A program made the translations under genes and the position numbers. A stretch of 64,000 nucleotides of DNA from Fontisphaera persica. GTDB lineage: Bacteria; Verrucomicrobiota; Verrucomicrobiia; Limisphaerales; Fontisphaeraceae. Of the stretch, positions 9,601 through 21,640 are shown one piece after another (the first letter of the stretch is position 1; each line of letters opens with the position of its first letter). The stretch spans positions 4,464,001 through 4,528,000 of the forward strand of contig NZ_CP116615.1 in NCBI RefSeq assembly GCF_024832785.1, given 5' to 3'. The notes beneath the pieces are model-generated. The model was not told the DNA's origin and searched no databases. It saw nothing but the letters and a program-made list of their open reading frames with translations.

Positions 9601-9893
9601 ATGACCAGGGCAAATGGCAGGAGTGGGGCCGGTTGAGTTTCAGCGGGTACCCGGAGAAGCTTGTTTCACTTGGGGCGTGGCTGGGCGTGCAGTCGCAGGG
9701 GCAGATTTCAGTGGTGGAGGCGGCCAACGCCTTGCGCCTGGTGGCGCAGAGCCGCGTGCAGGGCTGCTTTTCCCCGATGGTTGAATACGCCGATGGCAAT
9801 CTGCAAAGCGGCTGGTTTGTGCCGCTGGAGGCCTACGGGGTGCTGCGCGTGCTGCCGCTGGCGTGGGGTGGGGAACGACTGGCCGGGCCTTGA
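6693..9893 (+). CDS. Very large secreted beta-propeller protein
   Basis: 1066 residues with an N-terminal signal (GGMVFLLASLAMAVPP). There are many repeated beta-rich modules of the form VVDIGNPDQPVMRGTL, VVDLSDPARPRIAGELEVPG, SLFDVSNPARPRLF and VIDVSALPQLRVLGVYEG. These are LVIVD-like propeller blades, so the protein probably forms one or more seven-bladed propellers outside the cytoplasm. No catalytic motif or C-terminal anchor is evident. It is preceded by a short intergenic region and followed by the first toxin-antitoxin pair. Binding or scaffold roles are plausible; the function is unknown. Confidence 0.8.
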   Translation: MKLRNRFGCITPWAGGMVFLLASLAMAVPPVPVITGIQPTRTNVLVEVQVPVGLREITVEGRARFGRGNWEPRAVVRTDGSGGKVLVSLPFAKTLEMLRVKARPQPVLPENFYTGQTSFAGPAATEVNTYGGPMIYTSTGMGGIEVRNPGDMDTGSQPREVVESDIWKIRGHTLYYFNQNRGLQVVDIGNPDQPVMRGTLSMPAVGEQMYVLNDTYAVLLARETCESGNYQSGRVVVVNVAGEKPAVVATVAVAGRLQESRLVGSALYVSSSVYRPVTGTTNTQWEYGTMVESFDLANPAQPVRRNQLWYAGQSDDVVTATETFLFVAHRSRENYQRSVLHVVDITAPNGQMQEYVTLQPAGHIKDKFKIYHHAGILTTVAEDWTPTATNRMRTRLETWRLPDPRSAGPIAAAKLGEVVLGYNESLHATRFDGTRAYVVTFFQVDPLWVVDLSDPARPRIAGELEVPGWSTYIEPLGERLVAVGWENNRVAVSLFDVSNPARPRLFNKVLLGEHGSWSEANLDEKAFTVLPTAGLVMVPYGGYLSNGYAQRVQLIDLQATNLVLRGVIEHQMQPRRSALYKERILSISGWELITVDAADRDQPRVTATLELSWPVSRVWVAGAHLLQLFDCRNYYGWEQANQPALRVSTQAEPDQALNMLRLGEWPVAGATLREGRLYVLQTPGGGYGWRWAYVPPAASGEERNFKLSVIDVSALPQLRVLGVYEGNHGRAAYGQQWEPLWLENGLLVWVNTQPLPYYYLMPVLWDGPVTLGRFGFWPGPVYGSGGGEMVAFEVGGAGAPVKWVSTVDLSTNGWLQFSRPVGQGNCIFISHGAQMAPEPVVVPLDYPVGEPVPYAWRVEQKHFLSVVDFTDPLEPVVRAPVNVPGTLLGVSHGGNMVYTTGPHYNAQGVTDYRQYVDAGAYDGTQFHLVASLPLPEQAQQPLVHQGGVFYLEGKYEATQNSTALLGWRLDDQGKWQEWGRLSFSGYPEKLVSLGAWLGVQSQGQISVVEAANALRLVAQSRVQGCFSPMVEYADGNLQSGWFVPLEAYGVLRVLPLAWGGERLAGP

Positions 9894-9930
9894 GGCCAAA
9901 CACCGGTTGTTCCGCCTCGCTTCATAAAGG

Positions 9931-9948
9931 TCTTTCTTTGCCGAAAGA
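9931..9948. promoter_or_regulatory. Inverted repeat upstream of Panacea antitoxin 1
   Basis: TCTTTC (9931-9936) and GAAAGA (9943-9948) form a perfect inverted repeat with a 6-nt spacer, 25 bp before the antitoxin start. No T-run follows, so an operator for autoregulation is more likely than a terminator. This is inference from position. Confidence 0.35.
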
Positions 9949-9973
9949 ATTAGAGTACTATGAAAGTGGTGAT

Positions 9974-10579
9974 ATGAATTTGGCATTTGCATATCGCAAG
10001 GCGACACAGGCACTCAATTTTTTTGCGCGCAAGAGCGGTGGCCGGATCAACAAGCTTAAAGCCCTAAAACTTGTTTTTTTTGCCGATCGCTATCACTTGC
10101 GAAAATACGGGCGTGCCCTCACCAACGATCGGTACCTGGCCATGAATTACGGGCCTGTGCCCTCTGGGACCAAGGACTTGGCGGAGCAAAGCGAATTTCT
10201 GGGTGAGCTGGAAAAGCAATACTCCGGGCGTTTTATCCGTCCCTGCCGGGAAGATGTCCACGCTTTGGAATCCATTGACGAAGTGGAAACCCGTGTCTTC
10301 TCGCAATCGGATTTGGAAGCCTTGGAATATGCCTGGCAAAAGTTTGGGGCCGCAGATGGTTTCCGGCTGGCGGATTTGACCCATGAATATCCCGAATGGC
10401 GAAAACATGAGACGGCGCTGAAATCGGGAGAGACCACCCGGGCAATGATGGCCTACGATGATTTTTTAGAGGACCCGCCTGAGGGGGTTGAGCCGTGTTT
10501 TGCGTTGAGCGACGAAGAACGGGAATGGCGTAGAGAGATGCTCGAGGAAGCTTTCCATTTTGAGGCCAAGTGGAGGTAA
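9974..10579 (+). CDS. Panacea-domain (DUF4065) antitoxin, module 1
   Basis: 201 residues from the ATG at 9974, which has GGTGAT just upstream. The N-terminal half carries the Panacea/DUF4065 signature: INKLKALKLVFFADRYHLRK, then GRALTNDRYLAMNYGPVPSG. The C-terminal half has FRLADLTHEYPEWRKHE, the other conserved patch of the family. Panacea is known as a promiscuous antitoxin domain that neutralises unrelated toxins. The gene is followed 11 bp later by a small gene that fits a partner toxin. Its sequence is visibly more AT-rich than the surrounding genes, suggesting acquisition by transfer. A second such pair lies at 30-31 kb. Confidence 0.88.
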   Translation: MNLAFAYRKATQALNFFARKSGGRINKLKALKLVFFADRYHLRKYGRALTNDRYLAMNYGPVPSGTKDLAEQSEFLGELEKQYSGRFIRPCREDVHALESIDEVETRVFSQSDLEALEYAWQKFGAADGFRLADLTHEYPEWRKHETALKSGETTRAMMAYDDFLEDPPEGVEPCFALSDEEREWRREMLEEAFHFEAKWR

Positions 10580-10590
10580 GGGGAGGCGGC

Positions 10591-11022
10591 ATGGACGAGG
10601 AGGCGCCCTGGGAAATAAAGCTAACGCTTCGCCCCGGGAGTGTTTATTACTTCGTGGATCGCCACCTCACTTCAGGAGAACCTCATTATTTCATTGTGGT
10701 CAATGTCCAACCGCTTGAAGACCAAGTGCTGGTGTTAACGGTGATTTCCTCGCAAGTTGAAAAAGTGGAGCGACGAGGGGCTAATTTGCCGGGAACAACC
10801 GTTCGCATTTCTCCCGCGGACTACGAGGAGCTTACCAAACCATCCATCGTGGATGGCAATTTTGTCGTACGCAAATCTCTGGCCGAATTGGTGGCGAAAA
10901 TGAGACGCAAGGAAATCGTCCCGAAGCGCGATCTTTCCGGCAATATCTTACATGCCATTCAGCAGGCAATTCTGGCCAGTCCGCTGGTGGAAGAGGAGGT
11001 CAAGCGATTGCTCCGGAAATGA
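10591..11022 (+). CDS. Putative toxin partner of Panacea module 1
   Basis: 143 residues from the ATG at 10591, preceded by a strong AGGGGAGG ribosome-binding site. The N-terminal half is beta-rich (LRPGSVYYFVDRHLTSG, PHYFIVVN, QVLVLTVISSQVEK), and the C-terminal half is helical, ending ILHAIQQAILASPLVEEEVK. It has the position, size and coupling of a toxin. The N-terminal pattern recalls an SH3-like barrel as in PemK/MazF, but I see no decisive catalytic signature. Its C-terminal motif and N-terminal LxPG are shared with the gene at 30648, so both belong to one family. Toxicity is inferred from context. Confidence 0.65.
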   Translation: MDEEAPWEIKLTLRPGSVYYFVDRHLTSGEPHYFIVVNVQPLEDQVLVLTVISSQVEKVERRGANLPGTTVRISPADYEELTKPSIVDGNFVVRKSLAELVAKMRRKEIVPKRDLSGNILHAIQQAILASPLVEEEVKRLLRK

Positions 11023-11235: not shown

Positions 11236-11652
11236 TTATTCCAGCGTCAACAGGGGCTGGCCCTCTTCGGCGGCATCGCCGACGGCCACTTTGATGGCCT
11301 TGACCACACCGTCGCGAGGGGCGAAGACGTTGGTGTTCATCTTCATGGCTTCCAGCACGAGGACGCAGTCGCCAGCTTTGACGGTTTGGCCCACCTGCAC
11401 GTTGATGGCCACGACGCGCCCGGTGAGGGGGCTGGGGATGTCGCCCGGACCGGCGCTGGCGCCGGCAGGAGCGGCTACCGGGGCAGGGGCTGGAGCGGGG
11501 GGAGGCGGAGGCGGTGGTGGTGGCGGCGGGGGCGGGGCGGCGTGGGCGGCGGGTGCCGGGGCAGGCACGGCCTGGCGTCCGGCGTCGTCGAGGACTTCCA
11601 CCAGCACATCGTATTGTTTGCCGTCAATGGTGATGAGCAATCGTTTGGTCAT
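11236..11652 (-). CDS. Biotin carboxyl carrier protein (1.3S-like)
   Basis: 138 residues. The C-terminal 75 residues form a biotinyl domain (SPLTGRVVAINVQVGQTVKAG) with the biotinylation motif EAMKM, the target lysine being K104, 34 residues from the end as usual. Before it lies an Ala/Pro-rich flexible linker with a long proline run, and at the N-terminus the strand ITIDGKQYDVLVEVLDD. It resembles the gamma subunit of methylmalonyl-CoA decarboxylase and the 1.3S subunit of propionibacterial transcarboxylase. It is the last gene of the operon and would shuttle carboxyl groups between the two carboxyltransferases encoded upstream. Confidence 0.9.
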   Translation of the reverse strand: MTKRLLITIDGKQYDVLVEVLDDAGRQAVPAPAPAAHAAPPPPPPPPPPPPPAPAPAPVAAPAGASAGPGDIPSPLTGRVVAINVQVGQTVKAGDCVLVLEAMKMNTNVFAPRDGVVKAIKVAVGDAAEEGQPLLTLE

Positions 11653-11691: not shown

Positions 11692-12150
11692 TCAGCGAAT
11701 GCGGTGCGAGGCAAAGTGCTGCACGCGGCCTTCGATGGCCCAGGTGTTGAGCACGGCGCCCAGCGGCCACGGGCCAAAGGCCGGGGTGCGGACGGGTTCC
11801 ACTTCGACGATGCGGTGGGGGCCGTCAATAACCATGGCCACGGCGGCGGCGATGGTGGCGGCGATTTCCGCATCAATCAGGTCGCGGCTGGCGCTGCTGC
11901 GCAACGGCGGGGCCACCGGGGTGTCATCGCCGGCGCCGGTGGTGAGCTGGGCGCCTGCCAGCCGGGCGACGGAGGCGTAGGTGCGCGGCGTGAATTCGCC
12001 GCAGAAGGTGTCGGCGCGCACGAGCGGGAAGGCCGCGGCGCGCGGGGGAAACCGATGGCAGCGGCCGTAGTTGTATTTGACCTCGGGGCCGATTTTGACA
12101 CCGGCCTCCTCGTGCTGCCACCACAGGCAATGTTCGCAACTCAGTTGCAT
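11692..12150 (-). CDS. Cys4 module fused to decarboxylase small-subunit-like tail
   Basis: 152 residues in two parts. Residues 1-55 hold a four-cysteine motif: CEHCLWW (C5, C8), then GRCHRFPP (C31) and FCGEFTPR (C50). This layout is seen in small uncharacterised Cys4 proteins and probably binds zinc or a metal cluster. The C-terminal half contains AEIAATIAAAVAMVI, GPHRIVEVEPVR and the ending EGRVQHFASHRIR, which recall the soluble tail of sodium-pump decarboxylase small subunits (OadG/MmdD type). No transmembrane helix is obvious. It sits between the carboxyltransferase and biotin carrier genes, so an assembly or docking role for the biotin enzyme is plausible. Function is inference. Confidence 0.6.
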   Translation of the reverse strand: MQLSCEHCLWWQHEEAGVKIGPEVKYNYGRCHRFPPRAAAFPLVRADTFCGEFTPRTYASVARLAGAQLTTGAGDDTPVAPPLRSSASRDLIDAEIAATIAAAVAMVIDGPHRIVEVEPVRTPAFGPWPLGAVLNTWAIEGRVQHFASHRIR

Positions 12151-12216: not shown

Positions 12217-13770
12217 TTAGAGCGGAATGGTGCCGTGTTTTTTGGGCGGCCGGGTTTCGCGCTTGCTCAGGGTGTTGCGGAGGGCCATGGCCACCGCGGC
12301 GCGGGTTTCGGCCGGTTCAATGACGTCGGTAATCATGGCCTTGGAGGCCGCCTCGTAAGGCGAGCAGAATTTGTCGCGATATTCGGCCTGGAGCTCGGCT
12401 TCTTTGGCCTTGGGGTCCGGGGCGGCGGCGATTTCCTTTTTGTAGAGGACCTTGACCGCGCCTTCGGCGCCCATGACCGCAATTTCGGCGGTGGGCCAGG
12501 CGTACACGAAATCGGCGCCCATGTCCTGGCTGCACATGGCGAGGTAGGCGCCGCCGTAGGCCTTGCGCATGATGACGGTGATTTTGGGCACGGTGGCCGA
12601 GGCGTAGGCGAAGAGCATCTTGGCGCCGTGGCGGATGATGCCGCCGCGTTCCTGTTGGAGGCCGGGGAGGAAGCCGGGCACGTCCACGAGGGTCACGAGC
12701 GGGATGTTGAAGACGTTGCAGAAGCGGATGAAGCGGGCGGCCTTGTCGGAGGAGTCAATGTCCAGGGTGCCGGCCTTGACCATGGGCTGGTTGGCCACAA
12801 TGCCGACCACAATGCCCTGGATGCGGGCAAAGCCGACCACGATGTTTTTGGCGAACTCTTTGGCGACTTCAAAGAAATCGCCGGCATCCACCAGGCGGGT
12901 GATGACGTCGAGGACGTTGTAGGCCTGCTTGGGGTCGGAGGGGACCAGGTCGTTCATCCCGGGGTCGGGGGTCATGTCCACCACCGGCGTGGGATGGTGG
13001 GGCGGGTCCATGAGGTTGTTGGGGGGGAGGTAGGAGAGCAGCTTGCGCACCAGCTCGACGGCATGGGCGTCGTTTTCGGCGATGAAATGGATGTTGCCGC
13101 TGACGGCGGCATGGGCCTCGGCCGTGGCGAAATCGGCCAGGTCGGCCTTCTGGCCGGTGGCGGCCTTGATGACTTCCGGCCCGCAGATGAACATGTTGGC
13201 GGTTTTGCGGACCATGATGAGGAAGTCCATCAAGGCGGGGGAGTAGGCCGCGCCGCCCGCGCAGGGGCCGGCGATGACGGCGATTTGGGGCACCACGCCG
13301 GAGAGGAGGACGTTGCGGAAGAAGACCTGGCCGTAGCCGGCGAGGGATTCCACGCCCTCCTGGATGCGGGCGCCGCCGGAGTCGTTGAAGCCCACCACGG
13401 GCATGCCGCAGCGGAGGGCGTATTCCATCATGTCGCTGATTTTGCGGGAGTGGATGCGCCCGAGGGCGCCGCCGCCGACGGTGAAGTCCTGGCTGAAGAC
13501 GGCCACGGGCCGGCCGTCCACGAGTCCGACGCCGGTGATGACGCCGTCGCCGGGCATGGGTTTGCCGTCCATGCCGAAGTTGTGGCAATCGTGCTGGGCG
13601 TGCTGGCCCATTTCGAGGAAGGTGCCGGGTTGGAAGAGGGCCTCCACGCGGTCGCGGGCGGTCATGAGGCCCTTGGCGCGGCGGGCTTCGAGTTTGTCGT
13701 TACCGCCGGCGGCGCGGGCGACGGCGCGGCGGTGGGCCAGGTTTTTGAGCAATTTGGGGTCAATAGGCAT
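12217..13770 (-). CDS. Acyl-CoA carboxyltransferase (12S / MmdA / PccB-like)
   Basis: 517 residues, the usual length of propionyl-CoA carboxylase beta, methylmalonyl-CoA decarboxylase alpha and transcarboxylase 12S subunits. It has two crotonase-like halves: FNDSGGARIQEGVESL with AGPCAGGAAYSPALMDF in the first, and LVDVPGFLPGLQQE with KAYGGAYLAMCSQDMGADF in the second. It transfers CO2 between biotin and propionyl-CoA/methylmalonyl-CoA. Neighbours (epimerase, mutase, 5S-like subunit, biotin carrier) and the lack of a biotin carboxylase gene favour a transcarboxylase role over an ATP-dependent carboxylase. Which of the two it is cannot be proved from this gene alone. Confidence 0.9.
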   Translation of the reverse strand: MPIDPKLLKNLAHRRAVARAAGGNDKLEARRAKGLMTARDRVEALFQPGTFLEMGQHAQHDCHNFGMDGKPMPGDGVITGVGLVDGRPVAVFSQDFTVGGGALGRIHSRKISDMMEYALRCGMPVVGFNDSGGARIQEGVESLAGYGQVFFRNVLLSGVVPQIAVIAGPCAGGAAYSPALMDFLIMVRKTANMFICGPEVIKAATGQKADLADFATAEAHAAVSGNIHFIAENDAHAVELVRKLLSYLPPNNLMDPPHHPTPVVDMTPDPGMNDLVPSDPKQAYNVLDVITRLVDAGDFFEVAKEFAKNIVVGFARIQGIVVGIVANQPMVKAGTLDIDSSDKAARFIRFCNVFNIPLVTLVDVPGFLPGLQQERGGIIRHGAKMLFAYASATVPKITVIMRKAYGGAYLAMCSQDMGADFVYAWPTAEIAVMGAEGAVKVLYKKEIAAAPDPKAKEAELQAEYRDKFCSPYEAASKAMITDVIEPAETRAAVAMALRNTLSKRETRPPKKHGTIPL

Positions 13771-13790: not shown

Positions 13791-14231
13791 TTAGTGTGAG
13801 CTGCAGCAGCAGCCACCGCCCCCATTGTTTTTGGGCATGCAAAACTCGGTCAGCACGCCATAGGTGGATTTGGGATGGAGGAAGGCCACCAGCTTGTTGG
13901 CGGCGCCTTCAAACGGTTTTTCGTGGATGAGCTTGCAGCCGGCGGCGGCGGCCTGTTGCAACTGGGCTTCGATGTTGTCGGTGCCAAAGGCGACATGGTG
14001 GATGCCGCCGTTGGGATTTTTTTCCAGAAACTTGGCGATGGGGCTTTCGGGGTCGGTAGGCTCCAGCAATTCAATGTGGACCTCGCCGACGCTGAAGAAG
14101 GCCACGCGGACTTTTTGGGAGGCCACTTCCTCGCGTTTTTCGCATTTGAGGCCGAGGGCTTTTTCGTAGTAGTTCACCACTTCATCGAGGTTTTTGACCG
14201 CGATGCCGAGATGGTCAATTTTCTTAATCAT
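13791..14231 (-). CDS. mce: Methylmalonyl-CoA epimerase
   Basis: 146 residues starting at the ATG at 14231 (MIKKIDHLGIAVKNLDE), which overlaps the end of the meaB gene by 8 bp. The earlier in-frame start at 14249 would add six non-conserved residues. It is a glyoxalase/VOC fold with metal ligands in IDHLGIAV, EVHIELLEP and GIHHVAFG. It interconverts (R)- and (S)-methylmalonyl-CoA, linking the carboxyltransferase to the mutase. The C-terminus carries an unusual run of cysteines (GGGGCCCSSH), possibly metal-binding. Confidence 0.92.
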   Translation of the reverse strand: MIKKIDHLGIAVKNLDEVVNYYEKALGLKCEKREEVASQKVRVAFFSVGEVHIELLEPTDPESPIAKFLEKNPNGGIHHVAFGTDNIEAQLQQAAAAGCKLIHEKPFEGAANKLVAFLHPKSTYGVLTEFCMPKNNGGGGCCCSSH

Positions 14232-15414
14232 AGTGCTCGTTCTTTCCATGGGATGGGGAGGATGGCGCCGTGCTGCGGCCTGCGGGGGCCTCGGCCAGCG
14301 CCAAAAGTTCCTGGGCCGCCTGGGGGGCGGTGATTTCGCCGCGCAACAGGGCGGCTTCGAGCCGCGCGCGGGCGGCGGCCATGCCGGGGAGGCGGTAAAA
14401 GCGGGCCTCCAATTCTTCGCGGATGAGGTCCGCGAGCCACTGGCGGGACTGCTCCTGCCGCAATTGCCGGAGGATGCCGGCGGGCTCGAGCAGCGCGTAA
14501 AAATTCTGAATCATGTCCCAGACGGCGGGGATGCCCTCGCCGGTCAAGGCCGAGCAGGCGGCCACGGGGGTTTTCCACGGCGGGGTGGCCGGGGCCAGGT
14601 AATGCAGGGCGGTGGCGTATTCCTGGCGGGTTTGTTCGGCGCGCTGGCGGAGGGGGCCGTCGGCCTTGGTGACGAGGACCGCATCGGCATTTTCCACGAT
14701 GCCCTTTTTGATGCCCTGGAGCTCGTCGCCCGCGCCCGGCAGCAGCAGGAGCAGGAAAAAATCCACCATGGAGCGGACGGCCACCTCGCTCTGGCCCACG
14801 CCCACGGTTTCCACGAGCACGACGTCAAAGCCTGCGGCTTCGCAGAGGAGCATGGTTTCGCGGGTTTTGCGGGCGACGCCGCCCAAGGTTTTGCCGGAGG
14901 GCGAAGGGCGGATGAAGGCTTTGGGCTGGCGGCAGAGCTGTTCCATGCGGGTTTTGTCGCCGAGGATGCTGCCGCCGGCGCGGTTGCTGGAGGGGTCCAC
15001 GGCCAGCACGGCCACCTGGAGGCCCTGGCGGCACAAATAACAGCCGAAGGCCTCGATAAAGGTGCTTTTGCCCACGCCGGGAGCGCCGGTGATGCCGATG
15101 CGCCGGGCCTTGCCGGTGTGGGGCAAGAGCTGGCGCAACACGGCTTGCGCGAGGGTTTGGTGGGCCGGGGCGGAGCTTTCGATAAGCGTAATGGCCCGCG
15201 CGAGGATGGTGCGGTCGCCCCGGCGGACGCCTTCCACATAATCCTCGACGCTCAAACGCCGGACCCGGGGGCGCGGAGTGCCGGCTGCCGCCGGCGCCGC
15301 CGGCGGCACCACGGGCGGCAACACGCGCAGGGTCTCCGTCAACCGCTCCGGCGGCGCTGCATGGGCCGCGGAGGGGAGGGGAGTCCCCGGCAGGTCTTCG
15401 GCGCAGGTGGTCAT
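14224..15414 (-). CDS. meaB: MeaB/ArgK-type GTPase chaperone of methylmalonyl-CoA mutase
   Basis: 396 residues. The G3E-family GTPase core has a Walker A motif at residues 110-118 (GAPGVGKST), then AVDPSSNRAGGSILGDKTRM and the switch region VETVGVGQSE. MeaB protects methylmalonyl-CoA mutase from inactivation and gates B12 loading. It begins 6 bp after the mutase large-subunit gene and overlaps the epimerase gene, so translation is coupled. Compared with typical MeaB (about 330 residues) it has a Pro/Ala-rich N-terminal extension of about 45 residues and a short C-terminal tail. Confidence 0.93.
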   Translation of the reverse strand: MTTCAEDLPGTPLPSAAHAAPPERLTETLRVLPPVVPPAAPAAAGTPRPRVRRLSVEDYVEGVRRGDRTILARAITLIESSAPAHQTLAQAVLRQLLPHTGKARRIGITGAPGVGKSTFIEAFGCYLCRQGLQVAVLAVDPSSNRAGGSILGDKTRMEQLCRQPKAFIRPSPSGKTLGGVARKTRETMLLCEAAGFDVVLVETVGVGQSEVAVRSMVDFFLLLLLPGAGDELQGIKKGIVENADAVLVTKADGPLRQRAEQTRQEYATALHYLAPATPPWKTPVAACSALTGEGIPAVWDMIQNFYALLEPAGILRQLRQEQSRQWLADLIREELEARFYRLPGMAAARARLEAALLRGEITAPQAAQELLALAEAPAGRSTAPSSPSHGKNEHYD

Positions 15415-15420
15415 GAAGGA

Positions 15421-17607
15421 TTAGTCCGTGTGAGCGTGGGCGCGTTCGAGCTGGTTCAGGATTTCCATGGCGGCCTCGGTGATGATGGTGCCCGGGCCAA
15501 AGATGGCGGCTGCGCCGTGTTCGCGCAAGAAGGGATAATCCTGCGCGGGGATGACGCCGCCCACCACCACCAGAATGTCCTCGCGGCCGAGTTTTTTCAA
15601 TTCGGCCACCAGTTCGGGGAGGAGGGCCTTGTGGCCGCCGGCGAGGGAGCTGATGCCCACGACGTGGACATCGTTTTCGACCGCCATGCGGGCGGTTTCC
15701 TCCGGCGACTGGAACAGCGGCCCAATGTCCACATCAAAGCCCATGTCGGCATAGGCGGTGGCCACCACCTTGGCGCCGCGGTCGTGGCCGTCCTGGCCCA
15801 TTTTGGCGACGAGGATGCGCGGGCGGCGGCCTTCACGCTGGGCAAAGGCCTCGACGCGGCGGCGCACTTCGGCGAGCTGGTCCGGCTGGGCATACTCGGA
15901 GGTGTACACGCCGGAGATGGAGCGGATGAGGGCCTTGTGGCGGCCGAAGTGTTTTTCAAGGGCGGCCGAGATTTCGCCGAGGGTGGCGCGCTCGCGGGCG
16001 GCGGCGATGGCCAGCTCCAGGAGGTTGCCTTCGCCGGTTTCGGCGGCGCGGGAGAGGGCGGCGAGGGCGGCGTCCACTTTGGCCTGGTTGCGGGAGGCGC
16101 GGATTTGGGCCAGGCGCTTGATTTGGGCCTCGCGCACGGCGGCATTGTCCACTTCCAGCACGGGGATGGCTTCGGATTGTTCCAGGCGGTAGGCGTTGAC
16201 GCCGACGATGATTTCCTTGCCGGAGTCAATGCGGGCCTGGCGGCGGGCGGCGGCCTCCTCGATGCGCAGTTTGGGCAGGCCGGTTTCGATGGCTTTGGCC
16301 ATGCCGCCGAGGGCTTCGATTTCCTGGAGGTGCGCCCAGGCTTTTTCCATGAGGGCCTGGGTGAGGGCCTCGACGTAGAAGGAGCCGGCCCAGGGGTCAA
16401 TGACCTTGCAGATGCCGGTCTCCTCCTGGAGGAAGAGCTGGGTGTTGCGGGCAATGCGCGCGGAGAAATCGGTGGGCAGCGCGATGGCTTCGTCCAGCGA
16501 GTTGGTGTGCAGGGACTGGGTGTGGCCGAGGGCGGCGGCCATGGCTTCGATGCAGGTGCGGGCCACGTTGTTGAAGGGGTCCTGCTCCGTCAAACTCCAG
16601 CCCGAGGTCTGGGAGTGGGTGCGGAGGGCCATGGATTTGGGATTCTTCGGGTTGAACTGCTTGATGAGTTTGGCCCAGAGGAGGCGCGCGGCGCGCATTT
16701 TGGCCACTTCCATGAAGAAGTTTTTGCCCTGGGCCCAGAAGAATGAGAGGCGCGGGGCAAACGCATCAATATCAATGCCCGCCTGGAGGCCGGTGCGGAC
16801 GTATTCGAGGCCGTCGGCCAGAGTGTAGGCCAGCTCCAGGTCCACCGTGGCTCCGGCCTCTTGCATGTGGTAGCCGGAGATGGAGATGGAGTTGAACTTG
16901 GGCATGTTTTTGGAGGTGAAGGCGAAGATGTCCGCAATAATCCGCATGGAAGGCTTGGGCGGATAGATGTAGGTGTTGCGGACAAGGTATTCCTTCAGGA
17001 TGTCATTCTGGATGGTGCCGGAGAGCTGGGCCATGGGGACGCCCTGCTCCTCCGCCGCCACGATGTAGAAGGCCATGATGGGCAGGACGGCGCCGTTCAT
17101 GGTCATGGAGACGGAGATGCGGTCCAGGGGGATGCCGTCAAAGAGGATTTTGGCGTCCTCGACGCTGCAGACGGCCACGCCGGCCTTGCCGACATCGGCG
17201 AAAGCGCGGGGGTGGTCGGAGTCGTAGCCGCGGTGGGTGGGCAGGTCAAAGGCGACGGACAACCCCTGCTGGCCGGCGGCAATGTTGCGGCGGTAGAAGG
17301 CGTTGCTTTCCTCGGCCGTGGAGAAGCCGGCGTATTGGCGGACGGTCCACGGTTTGACCACGTACATGGAGGCATACGGCCCGCGCAGGAAGGGGGGCAG
17401 GCCCGGCAGGTAGTCGAGGTGCAGCGCGGCATCCAGGTCGCGGCGGGTGTAGAGGGGTTTGACCTCGATTTGCTCCATGGTCTGCCAGAGCAGCTCCTGG
17501 AGCGGGCGTCCGGTTTCCCGCTCGATTTGCTGCTGCCATTGTTCAAAGGTGACCGCGGGGGTGGGCGGTTGAAACGGTACTTGGGTGAAATCAGGCAAGG
17601 TTTTCAC
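15421..17607 (-). CDS. mutB: Methylmalonyl-CoA mutase, large catalytic subunit
   Basis: 728 residues, the full length for the catalytic subunit. The N-terminal TIM barrel includes [20 protein letters not shown] and the [20 protein letters not shown] substrate region. The C-terminal B12-binding domain carries DGHDRG with H608 as the cobalt-ligating histidine, followed by [16 protein letters not shown]. It converts (R)-methylmalonyl-CoA and succinyl-CoA using adenosylcobalamin. Its start overlaps the mutA stop by 4 bp (ATGA), so the two subunits are translationally coupled. Confidence 0.96.
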
Positions 17608-19775
17608 AGAGCAACTCCCATGGATTTGGCTAATTGAGACAAAAACGCGGCGGCATCCAGGCGGATATGGACAAAATCATCCACGCCCGCCTGTTTATGC
17701 GCATCAATCTGGTCCTGCGGATAGCCCGCCAGGATGACTTTACGTTTCGGGTCTGCGGCTTTGACCGCCTGCACCAGCGGGGGCACGAGGGCGGGGTAGG
17801 TATCGTCGGTGCTGCAAATGACAATCACCGGCGCGCCGGAAGCCAAGGCGGCCTGGGCGGCCTCCTCCGGGGTCTTGAAGCCGGCGGGGTAAATCACTTC
17901 CCAGCCGCCGGTCTCAAAGAAGCCGCGGCAGAAGTCGGCGCGGGCCTTGTGTTGTTTGAGGGGGCCCAGATTGGCCAGAAAGATTTTGAGCGGGCCGTGC
18001 TGCGCGGCATGGGCGCGCATGGCCTGGCGCAGTTTTTCAAAGGCCTCGGCCGCCCGCACCAGGGGCACGGGCTGCCAGCCGGTTTCCGGGGTGTCGCTGG
18101 CCCGGAGGGCGCGGGTGATTTCGCCCAGGGTGGCACCGGCGAGGGCGGCTTCGATGGCGGCCTCGACCACGCCTTCCTCGCCGCCGTTGACGATGCGGTT
18201 GAGGCGTTCGAGGATGGCGGTGCTTTGGGTTTCATCAGCGCCGCTGCGGTAATCTTCAATCTGCCGGGCGCGCTGGCGGTGGAAATCCGGCGGCACAGCC
18301 GGGGCGGCTGGGAGGGGTTCTTCTTTGACGTTGGCGTACTGATTGACGCCCACCAGGGTGTCGCGGCGCTGGGCGACGGCCTTGAGGCGGGCGGCGCGGG
18401 TTTTGGCCACTTCCTCCTGGGGGAAGCCCTGGCGCATGGCGGCGGCGAGGCCGCCGCGTTTTTCGACTTCCTGGAACAAGGCCCAGGCGCGGCGGGCGAT
18501 TTCGTGGGTGAGCCATTCCACGTAGTAGGCGCCGCCGGCGGGGTCAATGACCTTGTCCAGGTCACATTCCTTCTGGAGGATGAGCTGGATGTTGCGGGCC
18601 AGGCGGCGGGAGAAATCATCCGGCGGCCGGATGACTTCGTCAAACGCGCCGACTTGCAGGCTTTGGACTCCGCCCACCACGGCGCCGAAGGCCTCGACGG
18701 TGGTGCGCAGGAGGTTCACGTAGGGGTCCAACTGGCTCTTGTTGAAGTGGGCGGTGCGGACGTGCAGATGGAGTTTCTGGGCTTCCGCCGAGCCGCCCAT
18801 GGCGGCCACGGCGTTGGCCCAGAGCATCCGGGCGGCGCGGAGTTTGGCGATTTCCATGAAGAAATGGGAGCCCACGGTGAGCGCAAAGCGAAGGTGGCGC
18901 GCCACGGTGTTGAGGTCCAGGCCGCGGTGGTGCATCTGGCGGAGGTATTCGACGCCGGCGCCCAGGGCGAAGGCCAGCTCCTGGACGGCGCTGGCGCCGG
19001 ATTCATGCCAGGCGCGGCTGTGGACGCAAATGGTTTGGAGGCGGGGGGCGTGTTGGGCGGCCCAGCGGGTCAACAGGGCCATTTCGCGGTAGGCGCCGTC
19101 GAGGGATTGGGGAAGGCGTCCTTCGTGCGCGAGAATGCCCAAGGGGTCCATTTCGATGCAGCCGCTGAGTTCGCTCACTGGTTTGTTCTGGCGTCGGCGC
19201 CAGGCGGCGAGGAGGGCGGTGAAGGGGAGGGCGGAGGCGCCGGTGCGCACAAACAAGGGCACCTGGGCCAGATTGATGCCTTCGAGCGCCCTGGCCACGT
19301 CTTCGGTGGTGGCGATGGAGACGCCGCCGGCTCCCACGTCTTCGTGAGCCAGCACGCGGTCCGGGTCCTGGCCGTTGCGGGTGGCGTGGTCCACCACCAT
19401 GTTCAGGCTGGTCAGTCCGCGGGCGAGAGCGGCGCGCGCCAGGCGGTTGAACTCGGCCGGCGCGGGGGCGTACAGCTCCTGGGAAATCTGCCAGCTTTCG
19501 GCGCGGTACCCGGCGGCGCGCACTCCGCGCACATACGGCGCGAAGCCGGGGAAGGTGTCCACATGAGCCAGCCCCTCGAGGTCTTCGCGGCGGTAGAGCG
19601 GTTGCAGGGTGATGCCCTCGTAGGTGGGCGTGAGCATTTTTTTATCGAAAGGCGCGCCTTTCAGCTCGGCCTCGACGGCGGCTTTCCACTCCGCGTAGGA
19701 CGGTGGCGGAAAATCACGCCGAAACTCCAGGGGCGGCAACGCAGGGGTGCTCGTTGTTTTTGGTTCCATAGTCAC
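17604..19775 (-). CDS. mutA: Methylmalonyl-CoA mutase, small subunit
   Basis: 723 residues, homologous throughout to the large subunit: [20 protein letters not shown] at the start, [20 protein letters not shown] in the barrel, and a B12-domain-like C-terminus. The DxHxxG motif is missing; the equivalent stretch reads [18 protein letters not shown], so this subunit does not bind cobalamin. That is the normal situation in heterodimeric mutases, and this subunit is structural. It is followed without a gap by the catalytic subunit gene and preceded by the 5S-like carboxyltransferase gene. Confidence 0.95.
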
Positions 19776-19793: not shown

Positions 19794-21323
19794 TTAGGCT
19801 TCGCGCACGGTTACCATACGGCGCACGCCATTCACGGTGATGGCAAAATGGCGGGTATGGCCATTGGTCCGCGGGCTGGCAGACGGCAAGGGCACCGGCG
19901 CCGGAGCGGGCGCTGGGGAGGGCGCGGGCGCGGCCGGTTTGGGGGCGGGCGGAGGGGCCGCCGGGGCCGCCGGGGCGGGAGCTTTGGGCTTCAACAAGGC
20001 TTCCACCTGTTGCGGGAACATGGCGTAAAGCACAGCCATTTCGTCGGTGTCCGGCAGTCCTTTGGCGCGCAGTTGCTCGCGCAATTTCGGCATGCCCGGC
20101 TCCAGCAGGTCGGCGGGGCGTTCGGTGATGGGCTTTTTGCCGGTTTGCTTTTCCACCTGGGCGAGCACCTCGGGGGCGATGGGGCCGGGGGTTTTGCCGT
20201 ATTTGCCGAGCGCAATATCGGCGGCGGGCTGGGAGATGTTTTTCCAGCGTCCGAATTTCACGTTGAGCATGGCCTGGGTGCCCACGATTTGAGAGGTGGG
20301 GGTCACCAGGGGAACATACCCCAAACAGGCGCGGACGTAAGGGATTTCTTTGAGTACTTCCTGGAACTTGTCGGCCATGCCCTGCTCCTTGAGCTGGGTG
20401 CGGAAGTTGCTCAACATGCCGCCGGGCACCTGGTAGGTGAGGATGTCGGCGTCCACCTTTTCATTGGCGGGGCTGGTGAACTTGGCAAGCTCCTGGTACA
20501 CGCCGGTGAAGTATTCCTGCAATTTGTAGAGCCGCTCTTCGTCAAAGGTGGGCCGGCGCGGATGGCCGTCCAGCAGGGCCAGCATGCGCAGGGTGTCCGG
20601 CTGGGCGGTGCCGTTGGCAAAGGGGGCAATGGAGGTTTCGACGGCGTCCACGCCTGCGTCAATCGCCGCCAGATAGGAGGCGGCGGCGAGGCCGGCGGTG
20701 TCGTGGCTGTGGAGGACGATGGGGATTTTGACCCGTTTTTTCAACTCGCGGATGAGGGTGGCGGCGACGCCCGGTTTGATGAGGCCGGCCATATCCTTGA
20801 TGCCGATGGAATGGCAGCCCATGGCCTCCAGTTCGACGCCCATCTGGACGAAGGCTTCCAGCGTGTGGACGGGGCTGGTGGTGTAGCAAATCTCGCCGCG
20901 GGCGTGTTTGCCGGCCTTGATGACGCACTGCACGGCGTGGCGGAGGTTCCGCACGTCATTCAGAGCGTCAAAAATCCGGAAGATGTCCATGCCCGCCTGG
21001 GCGGAGCAATTGACAAAGGCTTCCACCACGTCGTCGGGAAAACTGGCGTACTGGACGATGTTCTGGCCGCGGAGGAGCATGATGTGCGGCGTTTTGGGGG
21101 CGGCCTTTTTGAGCGCGCGCAAGCGGTCAAAGGGGTTTTCGTTGAGGTAGCGCAGGCAGGAGTCAATGGTGGCGCCGCCCCAGGTTTCCAGACCGGCAAA
21201 GCCCAGGTCGTCCAGCTCCGGGGCCACCGGCAGCATTTGGGCCGTGGTCATGCGCGTAGCGGCCAGCGATTGGTGGCCATCCCGCAGCACGGTGTTGTTG
21301 AACTGCACAGTTTTCACGGTCAT
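19794..21323 (-). CDS. Pyruvate/oxaloacetate carboxyltransferase (5S / OadA / PycB-like)
   Basis: 509 residues from the ATG at 21323 (MTVKTVQFNNTVLRDGHQSL), where family conservation begins. In-frame starts at 21362 and 21419 exist, but the latter falls in the loop of an upstream hairpin. Metal-site motifs are LRDGHQSLAATRM and VLHSHDTAGLAA; the carbamylated-lysine region is near IGIKDMAGL. The C-terminus has a long Ala/Pro linker and ends in a lone strand (FAITVNGVRRMVTVREA) resembling the first strand of a biotinyl domain, but the biotin motif is absent. The biotin carrier is a separate protein at the operon's end. It would interconvert pyruvate and oxaloacetate. First gene of the operon. 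Confidence 0.9.
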   Translation of the reverse strand: MTVKTVQFNNTVLRDGHQSLAATRMTTAQMLPVAPELDDLGFAGLETWGGATIDSCLRYLNENPFDRLRALKKAAPKTPHIMLLRGQNIVQYASFPDDVVEAFVNCSAQAGMDIFRIFDALNDVRNLRHAVQCVIKAGKHARGEICYTTSPVHTLEAFVQMGVELEAMGCHSIGIKDMAGLIKPGVAATLIRELKKRVKIPIVLHSHDTAGLAAASYLAAIDAGVDAVETSIAPFANGTAQPDTLRMLALLDGHPRRPTFDEERLYKLQEYFTGVYQELAKFTSPANEKVDADILTYQVPGGMLSNFRTQLKEQGMADKFQEVLKEIPYVRACLGYVPLVTPTSQIVGTQAMLNVKFGRWKNISQPAADIALGKYGKTPGPIAPEVLAQVEKQTGKKPITERPADLLEPGMPKLREQLRAKGLPDTDEMAVLYAMFPQQVEALLKPKAPAPAAPAAPPPAPKPAAPAPSPAPAPAPVPLPSASPRTNGHTRHFAITVNGVRRMVTVREA

Positions 21324-21640
21324 TCCTATTTCTAGCTTAAGTTGCTCTGGCAGGGAAGACATCCTTGGGGACACCTCACCCGCCAAAGGTTGGTTAGGAA
21401 TTCTTCTTAATCCATTCAAGAAGAATTAAAGAAACTAAACGTAATAAAATCCATGTGTGGCCATTTGTCGAGACAAAAATTGCCAAAAATTAAACTTTTT
21501 TGGTCTTACCATGACAAGATATGTGTGGGTTTATCAAGTCTATAAGAGCATTTGATTGTAAAATAATAATTACAACTATGATGTGGAACGCTAATATATT
21601 TGTAACATACTTGTTATGAGGATATTGCAATTATTAAATG
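21324..21640 (-). promoter_or_regulatory. AT-rich leader of propionate operon with three palindromes
   Basis: This stretch is far more AT-rich than its surroundings and carries three perfect inverted repeats. AATTCTTCTT (21399-21408) pairs with AAGAAGAATT (21418-21427). TTTGTC (21464-21469) pairs with GACAAA (21472-21477). TTGTAA (21556-21561) pairs with TTACAA (21570-21575). They lie upstream of the first operon gene, where a promoter, operators and 5' leader are expected. I see no cobalamin riboswitch. I cannot place the -10/-35 elements with confidence. Confidence 0.5.

Follow-up and report, generated by a model that had tools for sequence, protein, structure and literature searches.

A putative HiPIP-like Cys4 module joined to an OadG/MmdD-type tail in a candidate transcarboxylase scaffold subunit from Fontisphaera persica

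The window analyzed here is a stretch of 64,000 nucleotides from Fontisphaera persica (NZ_CP116615.1, positions 4,464,001 to 4,528,000), in which eight genes form a minus-strand run. They encode, in this order, a 5S or PycB-like carboxyltransferase (19794..21419; PF02436, 5e-47, plus an HMGL-like domain), the small and large subunits of methylmalonyl-CoA mutase (17604..19775 and 15421..17607), the GTPase MeaB (14224..15414; PF03308, 7.4e-107), methylmalonyl-CoA epimerase (13791..14249; PF13669 and synteny), the 12S carboxyltransferase subunit (12217..13770; PF01039, 3.9e-183), a small protein designated X (11692..12150) as the seventh gene, and a 1.3S-type biotin carrier containing EAMKM (11236..11652; PF00364, 7.4e-19). 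Both mutase genes are assigned by synteny, the large one also by mutual similarity to the small one, and their names are presumed from family knowledge. The nearest solved structures of the 12S protein include the PCC beta subunit 1vrg and the transcarboxylase 12S subunit 1on3, and the 5S protein is the sole PF02436 protein in the genome. The 12S, 5S and 1.3S genes are found together with mutase and epimerase genes in the operon, a gene set that we take to be the Wood–Werkman propionate module with a 12S/5S/1.3S transcarboxylase. Alternatively, the operon enzyme may be a carboxylase using a biotin carboxylase encoded elsewhere in the genome. The C-terminus of the 5S protein (RHFAITVNGVRRMVTVREA) is similar to the start of the biotin carrier (MTKRLLITIDGKQYDVLVEV) and is perhaps a docking strand. 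Adjoining the operon on the plus strand, an ORF with a SocA/Panacea domain (9863-10579; PF13274, 3.8e-21) overlaps a small family-less ORF (10570-11022), giving the appearance of a toxin–antitoxin-type pair.

X begins with ATG and comprises 152 residues on the minus strand. Its first 56 residues (11983..12150) form a Cys4 module with the pattern C5-x2-C8-x22-C31-x18-C50, residues 57–92 (11875..11982) form a linker that is shorter in the homologue L028, and residues 93–152 (11695..11874) form a tail of the OadG/MmdD/MmdE type, in which a helix predicted at 87–107 is followed by GPHRIVEVEPV...NTWAIEGRVQHFASHRIR. A sequence-only reading of this stretch had described the cysteine pattern, the motifs GRCHRFPP (29–36) and FCGEF (49–53), and two tail motifs (GPHRIVEVEPVR and EGRVQHFASHRIR), and had placed the gene between carboxyltransferase and biotin carrier genes; all of these features are present in the ORF, which is flanked by the PF01039 and PF00364 genes. 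It had also described X as free of a membrane helix, and we likewise found none in the N-terminal 60 residues, where the best 19-residue Kyte–Doolittle mean is 0.27, as compared with 3.18 in the same-family homologue L037 and 2–3.2 in membrane-helix homologues generally. X itself has no match in Pfam, NCBIfam or the PDB, and each half alone also has no match in Pfam or NCBIfam.

X is a genuine gene. It is conserved beyond chance, since the orthologue of a congeneric species is 93% identical and that of another family of the same order 53% identical, omega is 0.060 overall and the four cysteines are invariant in the aligned Cys4 family. Resolved by part against the same-genus orthologue, a single sequence pair with few substitutions, omega is 0.011 for the Cys4 module, 0.32 for the linker and 0.044 for the tail, as compared with 0.030 for the neighboring 12S gene measured in the same way. 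Strong purifying selection thus acts separately on each of the two modules of X, and a relaxed linker joins them.

The tail connects X to a wider family. Searches of the order gave many genomes that match X only in its C-terminal part (from about residues 51–95 to residue 152), and the tail is common to 18 aligned proteins from the same slot, 15 of which are not fusions. In the loci compared, the homologues lie between the 12S and biotin carrier genes with the operon order kept, except where a contig ends first; this slot is also occupied by L042, a tail match from the genome search. The tail ends in a nearly invariant N-x-W-A-x-E-G-R...R pattern. Five of the 18 proteins match the NCBIfam family MmdE (NF047904; best 1.3e-4) and eight match the Pfam family OAD_gamma (PF04277; best 0.0067), with a further match to MmdD at 0.033, while a search of the wider phylum recovered the tail on membrane-helix proteins in sister orders. 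A profile of the tail family gave chance matches only against the PDB. Because its relatives match MmdE, MmdD and OAD_gamma and the tail occurs on sister-order membrane-helix proteins, X is, on sequence comparison, a relative that keeps the OadG/MmdD/MmdE tail; the sequence-only reading had likened the C-terminal half to OadG/MmdD.

The N-termini ahead of the tail are diverse within the order, both among the 18 aligned proteins and in further genomes with the same slot and tail. In most homologues the tail is preceded by a soluble stretch, AESxLGRALAxIHRVLPRLD, a helical segment that belongs to no Pfam family (L029–L036, L038–L042, L075–L081). The N-terminus is a membrane helix in L037 (1769-2221, minus strand; same family) and in L043 (8257-8619), and a Cys4 module in three genomes.

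The relationship of the tail bears on where X may bind. The C-terminal tail of the OAD gamma subunit binds the alpha subunit, and the delta subunit of methylmalonyl-CoA decarboxylase (MCD) is a homologous scaffold (PMC7274780). By analogy, the tail of X would most likely dock on the 12S protein and/or the 5S association domain and hold the complex together. A linked 12S–X structure prediction was discarded, as it reached a pLDDT of only 34 from a shallow three-row alignment and its chain spans the two stops between the genes. In the loci read, X adjoins the 12S gene and not the 5S gene, and the methylmalonyl-CoA decarboxylase scaffold has a 12S-like partner. Both points speak against docking on the 5S association domain in place of 12S, an arrangement that we consider possible but doubtful, despite the presence of 5S in the operon and the proposal that, in OAD, the gamma tail binds the alpha subunit, which is 5S-like, at its association domain (PMC7274780).

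The genomic distribution of the Na+ pump suggests how the N-terminus came to vary. The pump beta subunit (PF03977, OAD_beta) is absent from 21 of 21 genomes of the order tested, including the genome G000, and present in 21 of 21 sister-order genomes tested. The 12S and biotin carrier genes lie directly beside OAD_beta in four of five sister-order regions, one of which continues with 5S; the fifth region has no match to the proteins of the window. The simplest history, in which we infer the direction of change, starts from a membrane decarboxylase operon; in this order the pump would have been lost, the enzyme would have persisted as a soluble transcarboxylase and the scaffold anchor would have been replaced. 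In two genomes, G068 and G106, X still has its membrane helix although no beta gene was found, so anchor replacement is not obligatory after pump loss. The membrane-helix proteins of such genomes, L037 and L043, possibly belong to a membrane-tethered transcarboxylase.

The relatives of the Cys4 module form a separate, widespread family. The sequence-only reading had assigned it to small uncharacterized Cys proteins, and standalone relatives indeed occur in phages, plasmids and bacteria. One of them, L044, lies in a fusion-carrying genome (G100) and reads TCRNCRFWE...GLCRRYAP...WPLTRADDWCGEFQPK. With L044 instead of whole X as the query, homologues were found in Caulobacter and Synechococcus phages, in Paracoccus and Thioclava plasmids, in other genomes of the order and in 25 viral contigs; whole X gave no match in tblastn searches of phages and plasmids, and a search of PHROGs returned a sub-threshold match of its Cys half only. 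The four cysteines, in the order C-x2-C-xn-C-xm-C, are invariant in all 25 aligned members of the family, and phrog_15838 is matched by 11 of the 25. In the Synechococcus phage MinM1 member (L086 1501-1692; UXQ89156.1), the annotated start at 1525 removes the first CxxC, and the true start probably lies upstream. Some viral contigs join the module to C-terminal domains of the RNA polymerase alpha subunit (PF03118, E 4e-7 to 1e-16; L104 1486-2112, L109 1492-1890, L126 1489-1938 and L105 1234-1665), which hints at a transcription-related phage role.

Several comparisons point to a high-potential iron–sulfur protein (HiPIP)-like fold. The Caulobacter phage member L088 scores above the Pfam HIPIP cut-off (23.4 against 22), with L087 just under it (21.6), and two HiPIPs rank first in a PDB profile search at sub-threshold E-values of 0.25 and 0.39. 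In an hhalign panel of ten comparison domains, part of whose sequences were entered by hand, the HiPIP 2hip reached 87% over 40 columns and the glycyl radical enzyme (GRE) gamma subunit MasC 19%, as compared with at most about 1% for rubredoxin, ferredoxin, TFIIS, L36, S14 and the Adk lid. None of 60 Cys-preserving shuffles reached the profile–profile scores against HiPIP and GRE gamma. The AlphaFold model of X has a pLDDT of 74–86 over residues 1–50 and below 70 elsewhere. Plain Foldseek of this model against the PDB returned nothing significant, and in VIA-align the seven rows reaching Z >= 2 all belong to HiPIPs or the gamma subunit of benzylsuccinate synthase (BSS), with low Z of 2.4–3.5. 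Taken together, the profile matches, the shuffle test, the hhalign panel and VIA-align make a HiPIP-like fold likely and a bound [4Fe-4S] cluster probable.

Many small Cys4 proteins bind zinc, and a cluster is not visible from sequence. The same scaffold subunit could accordingly bear a purely structural zinc site, not an Fe–S site, and the OAD gamma subunit itself has been reported to contain zinc (PMC8100219). We regard this as unlikely, as the profiles favor a HiPIP-type site over zinc ribbon, rubredoxin and L36/S14-type sites, and the folds retrieved with Z >= 2 are [4Fe-4S] proteins only. As judged from profiles and the predicted model, a HiPIP-type [4Fe-4S] center is more likely than zinc. 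Of the earlier suggestion of metal dependence, a metal center is plausible, with the profile and fold matches pointing to this type.

A cluster in this position might instead act as a redox or oxygen sensor controlling assembly or activity of the transcarboxylase. Such a role would suit a possibly redox-active domain within a subunit for the assembly of a propionate-pathway enzyme, and the cluster of BSS beta has been proposed to have a protective redox function. The reaction needs no electrons, the operon has no redox partner and the relatives of X manage without the module, which together leave a sensor quite improbable. That the module is a passenger and the fusion without consequence, as its rarity (three genomes) might imply, is hardly tenable and was rejected on the module omega of 0.011, below that of the tail and 12S, with the four cysteines kept between two families.

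The fusion itself is rare. Among 320 genomes of the order it was found in G000, G011 and G100 only, and all four cysteines are kept between the two families that carry it. A scan for peptide patterns across about 85,000 species, which detects close relatives only, returned a single record from G100 (L084), and a scan of viral contigs found no fusion. Co-occurrence of both halves in other genomes had been set beforehand as a test, and the halves were found together in G011 and G100 (L084) in the same slot between 12S and 1.3S. In the 12S tree, the three fusion genomes do not form one clade, since G068, which has the membrane-type X, branches between them (97/87 support). This tree allows independent fusion origins in the two families, with two changes. 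A segment after the module, CGEFTPRTYAxxAR, is common to the fusions and absent from the standalone relatives. Because the segment is shared, the sequences suggest a single origin of the fusion followed by replacement or transfer.

On balance, we consider it reasonably probable that X serves as the scaffold in a soluble methylmalonyl-CoA:pyruvate transcarboxylase and that a HiPIP-like domain replaces its lost anchor. From the comparisons above, we infer for X the function of a small delta/epsilon-like scaffold subunit alongside 12S, 5S and 1.3S, which would bind the 12S protein or the 5S association domain through its tail and stabilize the complex. In the ancestor, a membrane helix probably stood at the N-terminus and linked the enzyme to the beta subunit of the Na+ pump. 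With the pump subunit gone in the Limisphaerales-like order, the anchor would have been replaced by a soluble helical segment in most lineages and, in the lineage of X, by the HiPIP-like Cys4 domain, probably with its [4Fe-4S] cluster. Glycyl radical enzymes offer a parallel, as their gamma subunits are HiPIP-like and improve the solubility of the large partner (PMC12358834, PMC12590467); the Cys4 domain may similarly be a stabilizing or solubilizing module, or an extra docking module. A more far-reaching proposal, which we put forward tentatively and would not expect to hold in full, is an Fe–S biotin transcarboxylase with a HiPIP-type [4Fe-4S] cluster in its scaffold subunit, in which a Cys4 domain otherwise known from small proteins of phages, plasmids and other sources replaced the lost membrane anchor of the Na+ pump and assembly depends on iron or oxygen. 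The idea of a novel assembly subunit of a soluble biotin enzyme, raised in the sequence-only reading, retains its tie to a biotin enzyme, but X is better described as a known type of scaffold with a rare exchange at its N-terminus than as a wholly new subunit.

Comparison with known systems places X among, and apart from, several small subunits. The epsilon subunit of actinobacterial acyl-CoA carboxylase (ACC; PF13822) is small, encoded beside the 12S-type beta subunit and important for assembly and activity (PMC13118682). X resembles it as a small subunit gene beside a 12S-type gene, but the assignment was rejected, as neither X nor its 17 relatives match PF13822. In the Propionibacterium freudenreichii transcarboxylase operon, which includes 5S, a fourth, small coding sequence, PFREUD_18850, lies between 12S and 1.3S by locus number, a position like that of X; in a Swiss-Prot entry it is described as the C-terminal part of 12S, with no Cys4 module reported (PMC2909200). 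The small Cys4 proteins of phages and plasmids, including phrog_15838, share the module of X but occur either alone or, in phage contigs, joined to RNA polymerase alpha-CTD domains. The GRE gamma subunits (BSS gamma/TutF and MasC) likewise place a Cys4 domain of about 55 residues on a large enzyme and give a weak profile match, but they are separate subunits of a glycyl radical enzyme, whereas the Cys4 domain of X is fused to a decarboxylase-type tail. HiPIPs (PF01355) share the C-x2-C-xn-C-xm-C order with matching flanks and are the best profile and fold match; they are exported electron carriers, whereas in X the module is N-terminal, with no signal peptide, and X itself scores below the family threshold. 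No top-ranked paper in our literature search joined HiPIPs with biotin carboxyltransferases, and the present analysis proposes an iron–sulfur module in a transcarboxylase, together with a testable HiPIP-like fold assignment for a widespread nameless Cys4 family of phages, plasmids and bacteria. The OadG/MmdD/MmdE subunits of Na+-pumping decarboxylases (PF04277, NF047902, NF047904) share with X the tail helix, the W..EGR...SH+.R end and the gene slot between 12S-like and biotin carrier genes, whereas X has a Cys4 module instead of the membrane helix and its genome has no Na+-pump beta subunit. In its architecture, X is a rare and well-conserved variant of a scaffold subunit already known, with a probable iron–sulfur module at the place of the membrane anchor or plain helix of its relatives. 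It outlines how a Na+-pumping membrane decarboxylase could have evolved into a soluble transcarboxylase, the pump being absent, the tail kept and the anchor exchanged.
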